Assembly (NCBI GenBank): GCA_034370385.1
Contig: JAXMKZ010000053.1
Span: forward strand, 1 to 32,026
DNA length: 32,026 bases
Direction: 5' to 3'
From: Coriobacteriia bacterium
GTDB lineage: Bacteria > Actinomycetota > Coriobacteriia > Anaerosomatales > PHET01
The position numbers were made by a program, and so were the translations under genes. Of this stretch, positions 14,331-18,923 are shown piece by piece (within the stretch, counting starts at the first letter, position 1; each line of letters starts with the position of its first letter). Below the pieces are notes generated by a model that was not told the origin of the DNA, did no database searches, and saw only the letters and a list, made by a program, of their open reading frames with translations.

Positions 14331-16478
14331 CTATGACGGGGAATCGTCTTCTCTGGCGCTCACAATGGGCTCGACCACGAGCCCGCCGTCCGCCCACCCC
14401 ACCGCCACCGCATCGACACCGCTGTCCTCGGGCAGATAGCGCACGAGCGCGTGCGCCAGCATGCGGTCCATCTCGCGGCGCAGCTCCAACGGCGAGCCGG
14501 TGCTCTCCGTAAGGCTCTCGAGCCATTCGAGAACCGATGCACGCCATTTGACTGTGAGCCCTTTGCGCTCGAATCGCGTGGCGAGCGAGGTCATCAGGTC
14601 GCGTTCGAACCAGCGCCGGAACGCCTCGCCCCCCTCAGGGAGGTCAGATGCGACGATGTCGCAGACCGAGACCAGCTCACGCCCAAGAGCGCGTCCCGCA
14701 AGATCGCGTGGCGTCATTGAGTCATCAGGCGCACCCTCCGACTCCGCAGTGAGCACGACAACGCAGTCGCTGAGATGGATGCGCCGTCCACTTCCGTCCG
14801 TGAAGTAGCCGTCGTGCAACGCGGTGTTGAGGATGGCGCGAACCGAGGGATGAGCGTGGTGGACGTCGAGCAGCTTCACAACGCTCCAGGGCGTCTGCAG
14901 CAGATCGTGGAGAGGCACGTGCTCCTTGTACCCAACGTAGCTCGGCGGCGACCCCAGCAGCATGGTCACGGTGCTGGGGTCGTTGAACCGCGAGAAGTCG
15001 ATCTCCACGATGCGGTCCTCAGAGCCGTAGAGGCAGCGCGCGATGGTCGAGCAGATGGTGTTGACCCCCGAACGTGCCTCATCGATCAGCAGGAGAACGG
15101 CGTTGGGTGAGGCCGGGTCGACGTCGAAACCGCGCATGCGCACCTGAAGGCACTCGGCTATCGTCTCGATGTGTGGGATGCCGAGAACCCCTTGGCGCTG
15201 TAGCTCCTCACGCAGGTGCTCGACCCGCTCGGGCACCGCGACCGGCATGCCCACCAGCCGCTCTGCGACGTCGCGAGCGATCTCTCGGGTCACCTCGCTT
15301 GAGCCCACCGCCAACGCGCGCGCCACCGACTGTTCCAGCAGGTCGATCGCCTTGTCAGGAAAGAACCGGCTGGGCAGGAAGTCATCGGCGAAGTCGTACA
15401 GCCAGCCTAGTGTCGCTTCATCAGTGCGAATGCCGCGGTCATGCTCGGCCTCGGCGGCACGGCCGCATAGCATCGTCATGACCGCCTCACGATTGGGCTC
15501 GTTGAGGCGGATGGGCTGGAAGCGTCGATTCAACGCACCGTCCTGCTCGACGAAACGTCGGTACTCCGAGTCGGTTGTGGCCGCCAGACAGGCTATCTCG
15601 CCGCGGGCAAGCGCTGGTTTGAGCAGCGTGGCCAGATCGGTACGACCTTCATCCCCGCCCATGCCCACCAGCGCGTGGAACTCATCTATGAACAGCACCA
15701 CATCGCCCGCCGAGGCCTCCTCGATCACGTTCTTGACGCGCTCCTGCAGGCCGTTTGACCCCTCGACCCCGATGAGCATCGAGCCGGGAGGCAGGGCTAT
15801 CACGCGGGTGTCGCGCAGAAGCTCGGGTACGTCGCCGCGTGCGATACGCAACGCAAGCCCCTCGGCAAGCGCGGTCTTGCCGACGCCGGGCGGACCCACG
15901 AGCACCGGGTTGCGTTTGGTCGAGCGCAGCAAGACCTCCATGACGGTCTGCAGTTCGGCCTCACGCCCTATGGCCTCGCGCAGCTTCCCCTCCCGAGCCG
16001 CCGCTGTAAGGTCCTGGCCGATCTGCTCGAGGGTGGGCCCCTGCTCAGCGGTAGCCGAGACCTGCCCTTGGGGTTGCGGCAAGCCTGCGAGAAGATCGGC
16101 ACGTTTGAGCGTGCTCGCCTTACCGGTGACGAAGTAGCCCCCCATGACCAACACGGCGCGCGCCAAGTCAGGCAGGTGCATGTCTTGTCGGCCCTCAAGC
16201 GCGGCGATCATCCTCGCGCCTTGCAGCACGTTCGTCTCCGGCGTCGGCACACCCGCTCGCTCGACTCGGAGCTCCTCCTCGGCGGTATCAGCGAGTTGGC
16301 GCGGGTTCAACGTAGGCGCGACCTCGTAGAGCGCACCGGCGGCCTGCCGGCCGAGCGCGTGGAGCCAGTGATTCATGCCGAGCTCGCCGCCGGTCACGCG
16401 TCCGGTGTTGCGCACTGCCTCGAGATAGCGAACCCCATGCGAATCGATGCGGAATAACGGCACCTGACTGTCGACCAC
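14331..16478 (-). CDS. ClpA/ClpB-like AAA+ protein with a degenerate second ATPase ring
   Basis: A 715-residue protein with the layout of class-1 Clp unfoldases. The N-terminal region (about 1-145) is a diverged Clp-N-like module. Ring D1 is complete: Walker A GPPGVGKT (195-202), Walker B FIDE (263-266) and arginine-finger NRRF (317-320). Ring D2 keeps the shape of the family, with GSPPSYVGYKE (509-519) and an AHPSVRAILNTALHDG helix. Its Walker A is replaced by IDEARSGVNT (465-474) and its Walker B by KLLDVHHAH, so it should not hydrolyse ATP. No ClpP-binding loop was identified. It starts at a GTG behind GGGGGAG and lies 129 bases downstream of the M48-like membrane gene, probably in one operon. 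Confidence 0.82.
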   Translation of the reverse strand: MVDSQVPLFRIDSHGVRYLEAVRNTGRVTGGELGMNHWLHALGRQAAGALYEVAPTLNPRQLADTAEEELRVERAGVPTPETNVLQGARMIAALEGRQDMHLPDLARAVLVMGGYFVTGKASTLKRADLLAGLPQPQGQVSATAEQGPTLEQIGQDLTAAAREGKLREAIGREAELQTVMEVLLRSTKRNPVLVGPPGVGKTALAEGLALRIARGDVPELLRDTRVIALPPGSMLIGVEGSNGLQERVKNVIEEASAGDVVLFIDEFHALVGMGGDEGRTDLATLLKPALARGEIACLAATTDSEYRRFVEQDGALNRRFQPIRLNEPNREAVMTMLCGRAAEAEHDRGIRTDEATLGWLYDFADDFLPSRFFPDKAIDLLEQSVARALAVGSSEVTREIARDVAERLVGMPVAVPERVEHLREELQRQGVLGIPHIETIAECLQVRMRGFDVDPASPNAVLLLIDEARSGVNTICSTIARCLYGSEDRIVEIDFSRFNDPSTVTMLLGSPPSYVGYKEHVPLHDLLQTPWSVVKLLDVHHAHPSVRAILNTALHDGYFTDGSGRRIHLSDCVVVLTAESEGAPDDSMTPRDLAGRALGRELVSVCDIVASDLPEGGEAFRRWFERDLMTSLATRFERKGLTVKWRASVLEWLESLTESTGSPLELRREMDRMLAHALVRYLPEDSGVDAVAVGWADGGLVVEPIVSAREDDSPS

Positions 16479-16607
16479 AGACTCCCCCCACCGACCAGTA
16501 TGAGATTCGGAGTCTCCATCCTGACACAGGCCCCTCTGCAGCCGCCAGTTCTCACGACCTGCTGGGAGTCACGTGTTCGCTCCGAGGCACCGCTGGCTCG
16601 TCGGCCC

Positions 16608-18923
16608 TCAGTACTCCTTGATGACGCCCGTCACCGTCACCGGCGAACCGTCATCCATCCAACGCGAAGCGTAGACGATGATCGTCGTGCCTCCCCCCGG
16701 AGCGGACTCCGCCGAGATATCGAGTGAATCGAGCGAGCCATCCCCTACGCCCGAGTGTCGCACCAAGGGCCATTTCGTCTGCCCCGGAGAGGTCGGTGGG
16801 TCGTCGAACCCCTCCCAACCGTTCACAAACTGCGAGTAGCCCTGGGACTTTAGAATCTCTTCAAACAGTGCCGTGTTGTAGTACTCCGAGACAGCGGACA
16901 CGGGCAGTGAGACACGAAAGACCGAGGTTGCGTAGCTGGGATACGGCGCTTCAACAGACACTGTCGTGGCGCCAGGCGGCAGCGGGACGGTCACCGCCGA
17001 GTGATCGACCCGAGGGTACGGGTCGTAGTTACGGTCTGCGGTCATCTGCCGGGCCTGCATGAGGAGTACGCTTGGATAGGCGAGCACGACGAGCAGGGGC
17101 ACGAAGAGCAGCAGGTTCCGTGCGCGCTTCCAGCGGCTGGCCGGTGCGGCCGGGCGGGTCTTCGGTACGATCTCTTCGTCGATTACTGCAGCCGACCACG
17201 GGACAGCGTCGCTCAGCGCCTCAACGCGCCTCGGCGCGGGGACAAGCGGCATCGACTGAGTCTCGTCCGAGAAGGCGAACAGGCTTTGGAAGCCCTGGGT
17301 GGGCCATTCGGCCGGAGCCGCCTGCGCACGCACGAGCGCGCGCAGGAGCGCCGCCGGATCTCCCGTCTGCTCGACAGCCGCCCGGTCAGGATCCCGTCGC
17401 GCGGTACGGTTGGCCAGATGCGCGATGACGGCGAGAAGCTCGTCTTCCGTGAAGTCGCCGAGCATGGCCTCGGTGAACACCATCTCGGTGCCACCGATAC
17501 CGGGGACCACTCCCGTACGCAGGCATGCGTCGACGGCACCCCAAGGCCGGGCATGGATCATGCACAGAATCTGAGGTGGCGACGTCACCCAGTACGGCGA
17601 GAGGGCGCGGTATCGTGCAAGCGCCGCATCGAGCTTCGGGAACTCGCCGTGCGCCACAGGCCGAAACGCGGGCACGTTATCCTCAGGCAGCGAATCGACA
17701 AGGCCTACGCCGTCGACCCCGGCCTGCTCTTCAAGCCGACGCTCGCGTACGCTCTGACCCTTCCAACCGAGGTACGAGGTGCCCAGTGGACTGCACCAGA
17801 ACAGGTGTCCGTACGCCTCGGCGTGCGCCACCTGCGTCCCGAAGCGGGTTGCGTACGCGAGGCCGGTGAAGGTCGCAGCGGGCTCTTTGCTCAGGAGCAG
17901 CCCCTCATTGTCGGCCAGCATCGCGGTGGCCTCCTGCGCGAAGGAAAGCGCCTTCACGGCCAACAACGCCACAGGCAGACAGAACAGGCATGCCAGCACG
18001 GTGACCCCCAGTACGGCGTCTGACTGAAGCCCGGGGGCCTTCTGACCGGTGACGTACGGCAGCAGTGCGTAGCCGGCTGTCGCGGCACTCGATACCAGAA
18101 ACACCATCATTGCTGGGCCGAACACCATCGCCATTCGCTCGCCGTAGGTTTGTCTGCCCGGACGTCCGACGAATCCCCTCGACCCGAGCGTGAGGTCGCG
18201 TGCGGCTACCCACCAGAACGGCACAGAGAACCGTGCGCTGGCCCGTAGCACCCATCCGCGCACCGACGGCCCTCGGGACAGCAGGTTGGCGAACGCGGCG
18301 CGCTGTTCCGCCGCTGACAGCTCGAGGAACCGCGTTGTGACGAGCACAACGAACGACGGGGTTGCCCGTGTCCCCACGATGGCTGCGTTCACCGACTCCG
18401 CCTCGAACACGAATGGTCTCGGCGGGAACGGTTCGCCCGCTGCGATGGCTATTTCGGCCAGAGCGCGGAAGGTTCTCGGATGGTCCGAGCTGTTGAGAGG
18501 CACCGCTACCAAGCGCTTTCGGAGGTCCGGGTCCCCCCGCATCACTGAGACCAAGAACGAGACCGCCACGATGATGAACGCGAAAGCCAGGAACGGTGCA
18601 AACGGGGTGGGGGTCCAACGTCTGGTCTCGGCGGAAGCGAGCTGCGGTTTCAGTTCCGCGATGCTGGGCCAACCCTTGGCAACTGGGTTGGACTCGTCGG
18701 GTAATTCCTTGACCCGAATCGTCCGCTCGAGCTCGTAGGTTTCCCTGGCTGCTGCCTTGGCTCGCGGGTACTCCACAGCGACCCACGGGATGACAGCGAA
18801 CAGCGCAGCGCAGAAGACCGCCCCCACCAGCAGTAGCGCGATCGCACCGGAGACCGCCGCAAGCGTACCGGCGCGTCCGCGATCCACTACGTCCCAAAGC
18901 GCCCGTCTGGTCCCAAGCGGCAT
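16608..18923 (-). CDS. large membrane protein with two inactive M48-like segments
   Basis: A 771-residue protein. Helices lie near residues 21-48, 108-127, 266-288, 305-328 and 609-628. Between them is a fold that reads like an M48 (HtpX/Ste24-like) protease: VFEAESVNAAIVGT, VVLVTTRFLELSAAEQ, then ANLLSRG (212-218) where AHELSHG should be, and later the counterpart of the third zinc ligand, EATAMLADNEG. A second M48-like stretch (about 465-510) reads VFTEAMLGDFTEDELLAVIAHLANR, again without HExxH. Both zinc sites are therefore lost. The C-terminal region (about 640-771) is an extracytoplasmic beta-rich domain. GGAG precedes the ATG. It is the likely first gene of the unit with the ClpA-like ATPase. 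Confidence 0.72.
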   Translation of the reverse strand: MPLGTRRALWDVVDRGRAGTLAAVSGAIALLLVGAVFCAALFAVIPWVAVEYPRAKAAARETYELERTIRVKELPDESNPVAKGWPSIAELKPQLASAETRRWTPTPFAPFLAFAFIIVAVSFLVSVMRGDPDLRKRLVAVPLNSSDHPRTFRALAEIAIAAGEPFPPRPFVFEAESVNAAIVGTRATPSFVVLVTTRFLELSAAEQRAAFANLLSRGPSVRGWVLRASARFSVPFWWVAARDLTLGSRGFVGRPGRQTYGERMAMVFGPAMMVFLVSSAATAGYALLPYVTGQKAPGLQSDAVLGVTVLACLFCLPVALLAVKALSFAQEATAMLADNEGLLLSKEPAATFTGLAYATRFGTQVAHAEAYGHLFWCSPLGTSYLGWKGQSVRERRLEEQAGVDGVGLVDSLPEDNVPAFRPVAHGEFPKLDAALARYRALSPYWVTSPPQILCMIHARPWGAVDACLRTGVVPGIGGTEMVFTEAMLGDFTEDELLAVIAHLANRTARRDPDRAAVEQTGDPAALLRALVRAQAAPAEWPTQGFQSLFAFSDETQSMPLVPAPRRVEALSDAVPWSAAVIDEEIVPKTRPAAPASRWKRARNLLLFVPLLVVLAYPSVLLMQARQMTADRNYDPYPRVDHSAVTVPLPPGATTVSVEAPYPSYATSVFRVSLPVSAVSEYYNTALFEEILKSQGYSQFVNGWEGFDDPPTSPGQTKWPLVRHSGVGDGSLDSLDISAESAPGGGTTIIVYASRWMDDGSPVTVTGVIKEY

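Follow-up and report, generated by a model that had tools for sequence, protein, structure and literature searches.

The locus and its two genes

The window, by which we mean the whole stretch of 32,026 nucleotides that was analysed, carries two neighbouring genes that had been proposed to form a pair of degenerate partners: a two-ring Clp-type ATPase and, upstream of it, a membrane protein resembling M48 peptidases. Both open reading frames lie on the minus strand exactly where the original prediction had placed them. The features discussed below are as follows.

14331..16478, minus strand: open reading frame of a ClpC-like AAA+ ATPase with a dead second ring (D2), 715 aa, GTG start
16044..16478, minus strand: ATPase N-terminal region (aa 1-145), highly diverged, Clp_N-like
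15309..16031, minus strand: first AAA+ domain (D1) with its lid (aa 150-390), catalytic residues intact
15873..15896, minus strand: D1 Walker A, GPPGVGKT (195-202), from alignment
15744..15770, minus strand: D1 pore loop, GVEGSNGLQ, canonical KYRG tyrosine absent, from alignment
15681..15701, minus strand: D1 Walker B, ending in D265-E266, from alignment
15522..15527, minus strand: D1 arginine fingers, R318-R319, from alignment
14739..15149, minus strand: D2 pseudo-AAA+ domain (aa 444-580)
15057..15089, minus strand: degenerate D2 Walker A, LIDEARSGVNT (464-474), from alignment
14928..14954, minus strand: D2 pore loop, GSPPSYVGY (509-517), retained, from alignment
14856..14888, minus strand: degenerate D2 Walker B, WSVVKLLDVHH (531-541), from alignment
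16608..18923, minus strand: HtpX-like membrane pseudoprotease, 771 aa, five predicted transmembrane (TM) helices
17694..18560, minus strand: first M48/HtpX-like domain (about aa 122-410), no zinc ligands
18273..18287, minus strand: NLLSR (213-217) in place of HExxH
17910..17924, minus strand: AMLAD (334-338), where A replaces the third zinc ligand, the E of the HtpX ExxAD motif, and AD is kept
17391..17483, minus strand: second, short and weak M48-like stretch (481-511), HLANR in place of HExxH
16611..17057, minus strand: C-terminal tail (623-771), predicted extracytoplasmic from hydropathy only, after the last TM helix (604-622)

The ATPase has two Clp-type AAA+ domains, the first of which is catalytic by sequence. 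Its best score against the NCBIfam equivalog models for ClpA, ClpB, ClpV, ClpG and ClpK, 341 bits, falls short of cut-offs of at least 885 bits. An AlphaFold2 model of modest quality (three-sequence alignment, pLDDT 58) resembles ClpC and ClpB chains across both rings, over about 550-820 alignment columns. The best sequence and fold matches are to ClpC/ClpC1, the unfoldase of ClpCP (PDB 8a8u, 9if4), with which the protein shares the order N-D1-D2. Among the genes around it, none was recognised as ClpS.

A second ring without catalytic residues

Motifs of D2 were read from an alignment of the window ATPase with E. coli ClpA and ClpB and with ClpC-type homologues. D1 is complete, with Walker A GPPGVGKT, Walker B LFIDE, a sensor-1 TT and RRF arginine fingers, and the predicted full D1, with Walker A at 195-202 and D265-E266 closing Walker B, is borne out. 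D2 presents another picture: DEARSGVN replaces GPTGVGKT at Walker A, KLLD replaces LLDE at Walker B, E replaces N at sensor 1, SVCD replaces NRID at the arginine finger, and the GAR of sensor 2 is missing. The D2 pore loop, in contrast, is kept (LLGSPPSYVGYKE, with the YVGY motif), so that the alignment agrees with the original prediction on both the replaced Walker motifs and the surviving GSPPSYVGY at 509-517. Because all five catalytic elements of D2 are lost, we class the protein, from its sequence, as an Hsp100 relative and not as a canonical ClpA, ClpB or ClpC.

Two further elements of ClpC are missing. The junction between D1 and D2 has no coiled-coil M-domain (16 residues, against about 77 in ClpC1), a trait shared with ClpA, whose D2, unlike that of the window protein, retains its catalytic motifs in the alignment. 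The [LIV]GF loop by which D2 docks to ClpP is deleted in the window copy, despite the presence of a ClpP gene in the same genome. Since this docking loop is gone, a non-proteolytic role fits the window copy. The protein thus departs from ClpC in its dead D2, its diverged N-domain, its missing M-domain and its deleted docking loop.

A small family in two phyla

The searches turned up four further members of the ATPase family. The order itself contributes two, a different actinobacterial class a third and the Acidobacteriota a fourth. Among 69 genomes of the order, matches continuous over D1 and D2 were obtained in G067 (449 bits, 43% identity) and G012 (376 bits, 41%), whereas ordinary Clp proteins matched over D1 only, at 226 bits or less. 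A further relative, G112 from another class, came from 396 genomes sampled across the phylum; it scored 249 bits and the next match 140. Phylum matches at 130-140 bits were set aside: at the six loci recovered there by a motif filter, Walker A of D2 is intact and the proteins are Clps of the ordinary kind. When the GTDB contig collection was scanned with the D2 alignment, two loci were returned, one in the Acidobacteriota metagenome-assembled genome CP070706 and the other in G067 (Coriobacteriia); a scan of the same collection with the single ATPase sequence gave no match. A phylum search centred on G112, in an overlapping sample, brought no new members, and none was found in the viral contigs searched. 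Plasmid matches, among those listed, were below 42% identity and of the ordinary Clp type where annotated.

The member count is a lower bound, since the phylum scans capped how many candidates were scored in each genome, and further members may therefore exist. At least two of the five known members come from metagenome-assembled genomes and one lacks an upstream flank; G012 is a draft of about 520 contigs in which a contig end cuts the ATPase gene. A trace of Clp_N, under the Pfam cut-off, is detectable only in the N-terminal region of the Acidobacteriota member. Judged by these sequences, the dead-D2 ATPases are a rare Hsp100 family of sporadic distribution, with ClpC/ClpB-type proteins as its relatives.

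None of the five members retains the Walker A, Walker B, sensor 1 or arginine finger of D2, and the four in which sensor 2 can be read have lost that as well (the Acidobacteriota copy is masked at that site). Maximum-likelihood analysis of D1 groups the five together (support 100/99), and among them the window copy has the longest branch. A dead D2 common to all five, together with their grouping in a single clade, indicates that the loss is old and that the dead domain was retained: as read from these alignments, it is ancestral rather than the decay of one copy. Over 136 residues of the D2 core, the five members from two phyla can be aligned with no gap, which argues against a chance resemblance, and the cores of the relatives, 33-45% identical to that of the window copy, point to a domain that has been maintained. 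A loop of the [LV]GF or GFGF type persists at the ClpP-docking position in three relatives, a likeness to ClpC that the window copy has lost.

The two rings differ in what they conserve. Walker A, Walker B, sensor 1 and the arginine fingers of D1 are invariant across the family, which leaves D1 as the sole plausible motor. The tyrosine of the D1 pore loop is not conserved (G/Y/L/V/I at this position), being kept only in G067 and replaced in the other four members, whereas the D2 pore-loop residues count among the invariant positions of that domain, with Y514 present in five of five. The grip thus seems to have shifted from D1 to the catalytically dead ring. Our confidence is evenly divided on the reading that we prefer, in which D2 would be a pseudo-ATPase ring that keeps the fold and a substrate-contacting pore loop, and D1 the only motor. 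It is unlikely, in our estimation, that the family instead works as a non-threading switch or scaffold, with ATP binding by D1 driving assembly and D2 serving as an oligomerisation platform for chaperone-bound clients. Processive threading may indeed be weak, since most members lack the D1 pore tyrosine and D2 has no catalysis; but a pure platform would not need invariant pore-loop residues, and D1 is fully catalytic by sequence.

A zinc-less relative of HtpX in the membrane

An alignment of the membrane protein with ten relatives from the order was compared with a profile of intact HtpX sequences, six from the same order and one from G112. The two profiles match end to end (hhalign probability 99.3, E 1.4e-20), and on these sequences the homology of the first-domain family to HtpX, an M48B membrane metalloprotease, is firm. 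The arrangement of TM helices and an AD..G...L..P....AL signature are likewise kept. The differences from HtpX are the missing HExxH and third zinc ligand, an additional degenerate M48-like stretch and the C-terminal tail. Across the family alignment, sequences of the NLxAR type replace HExxH and the third ligand is lost.

HExxH had been said to be lost twice. The first loss is well supported, because the domain family is so firmly homologous to HtpX. The second is moderately supported: the stretch scores 12.8-13.9 bits against the Pfam M48 model, under the cut-off of 20.3, yet a profile built from zinc-less relatives scores it above all 2000 shuffles. HtpX alone gives no signal there, and the support comes solely from that profile. 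Several members of the zinc-less family exceed the Pfam M48 cut-off, which the window protein itself does not reach.

Among 99 related genomes, 48 contain a match to the membrane gene. HExxH in a matching frame was seen at none of the nine loci examined by motif, nor among the aligned relatives. The window genome encodes three zinc-less M48-like proteins and has no M48 match above the Pfam cut-off. An intact HtpX above that cut-off was not found in the window genome (G000) or in G001, G002 and G048; other members of the order have one. The zinc-less family could compensate for the missing intact HtpX in such genomes. The proposal that catalysis was lost while selection kept the folds is upheld in both genes, with a dead D2 in five of five ATPases and zinc-less M48-like proteins throughout the order.

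Hydropathy predicts the succession TM1-2, first domain, TM3-4, second domain, TM5, and by analogy with HtpX the M48-like domains would face the cytosol. Structure prediction of the membrane protein alone gave a pLDDT of 39.6.

Gene neighbourhoods

The original prediction went further and took the ATPase and the pseudo-M48 protein for a conserved pair, which would act as a dedicated membrane-bound, non-proteolytic unfoldase or scaffold complex expressed from one operon. In the window the two genes do share a strand, with a gap of 129 bp in which no terminator-like site was found, and the predicted topology would turn the M48-like domains towards the cytosol. The survey of relatives speaks against the pair: the three ATPase relatives whose flanks can be read are all without an M48-like gene beside them (G012 being at a contig end), and G067 and G012 carry the ATPase with no membrane-gene match at all. 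Nor was a Clp gene found near the closest relative of the membrane gene, in G031, or near the other copies closely read, of which two adjoin hisE instead (G000:C59 and G048:C87). The pairing is a single instance, that of the window, and we regard the dedicated complex as improbable; the zinc-less membrane protein belongs to a family of its own and is probably not the ATPase's standing partner. Of the proposed joint assembly, the non-proteolytic part survives and the co-evolved pair does not.

As a side observation, the zinc-less family is widespread in the order, and its hisE neighbourhood was met at both of the loci mentioned. The G031 gene (L053:9571-10897) appears to be frameshifted near its second TM helix.

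Another neighbour recurs. A gene of the YbjN/TY-chaperone type adjoins the ATPase in all three relatives with readable flanks: two TY-Chap1/YbjN copies flank it in G067, one lies 3 bp downstream in G112, and one is divergent from the adjacent ATPase in the Acidobacteriota genome. In G067 and G112 these ATPase-adjacent genes are the only TY-Chap1 genes found genome-wide. The window has no TY-Chap/YbjN gene next to its ATPase, and TY-Chap1 does not rise above the cut-off anywhere in the window genome or in the draft of G012. A replacement partner is conceivable in the window lineage, since its genome is without TY-Chap1; the pseudo-M48 protein may be such a membrane-anchored chaperone substitute, on a single instance of adjacency.

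The name TY-Chap1 comes from work on ADP-ribose-linked conflict systems, in which it denotes a peptide-binding chaperone (PMC9503650); the same family adjoins the ATPase in its relatives. In G067 the TY-Chap-flanked ATPase (L058:7103-10190) stands directly behind type III-B CRISPR genes (Cmr6, CARF-TM, NERD-helicase and Cas6). In G112 the ATPase-TY-Chap pair (L075:4915-13707) has a divergent TIR-domain gene on one side and a TrkA-N/RyR gene on the other, and an ordinary two-ring Clp gene is found about 6 kb upstream.

It may be asked whether the ATPase and its chaperone belong to biological-conflict (defence) systems, as a module housed in defence islands. The settings in G067 and G112 and the definition of TY-Chap1 would suit such a role, and the patchy distribution of the ATPase over two phyla suggests horizontal transfer. 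The neighbours of the window and Acidobacteriota ATPases, however, are housekeeping-like, so that a defence role is a possibility only, and no PADLOC family covers the ATPase, which draws weak AAA matches there. We consider this role quite unlikely. Ordinary decay, with both genes as pseudogene-like remnants, is very improbable, for although the window copy sits on the longest branch of its family and the G031 relative of the membrane gene looks frameshifted, both genes have long intact frames, the D2 cores align gaplessly and share many invariant residues, and the D2 and zinc-site losses are common to relatives and not peculiar to this copy.

Possible mechanism and known counterparts

Returning to the preferred reading, with D1 as the only motor and D2 as a passive grip, we may picture the following cycle. 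A peptide-binding partner would deliver the substrate; in the relatives this would be a TY-chaperone, and in the window it may be the pseudo-M48 membrane protein. ATP hydrolysis by D1 would then pull or lever the substrate, while the D2 ring, acting as a gripping collar, would grip or hold it. The product would be remodelled or released rather than degraded, in the window independently of ClpP. ATPase activity, hexamer formation and threading are here inferred properties of the dead-D2 protein. A fuller version, in which this Hsp100 family would be new to the literature and its rings would divide their labour the inverted way, is doubtful: the D1 motor, the dead-D2 grip and a T3SS-type (TY) peptide-binding chaperone would together make up a mobile module of conflict islands, into which a membrane pseudoprotease was swapped in the window lineage.

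Hsp100 proteins, M48-fold proteins and degenerate rings in other AAA+ proteins are known. Pex1/Pex6, type II AAA+ proteins of eukaryotes that stand outside the Clp branch, offer a parallel in which one ring powers the machine and the other is degenerate; their degenerate domains are in D1, and the dead-D2 ATPases reverse this arrangement. Two-ring Clp machines are usually held to need both rings catalytic for forceful threading, with D2 the stronger motor. A dead D2 kept across phyla with its gripping loop intact would thus be a natural separation-of-function mutant, suited to dissecting the contribution of each ring.

In the open-licence papers searched we found no direct precedent for dead-D2 ClpC or zinc-less HtpX families, and a report of a bacterial ClpC-like family combining a conserved dead D2 with TY-chaperone linkage was not found there either. 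A link between TY-Chap/YbjN and Clp was likewise not found in that literature, and PMC9503650 makes no mention of Clp. The linkage suggests a possible function for a chaperone family known mainly through its genomic context.

Elsewhere in the window, positions 438-1220 encode a predicted lipoprotein-like protein that contains a peptidase inhibitor domain of the chagasin type (I42).
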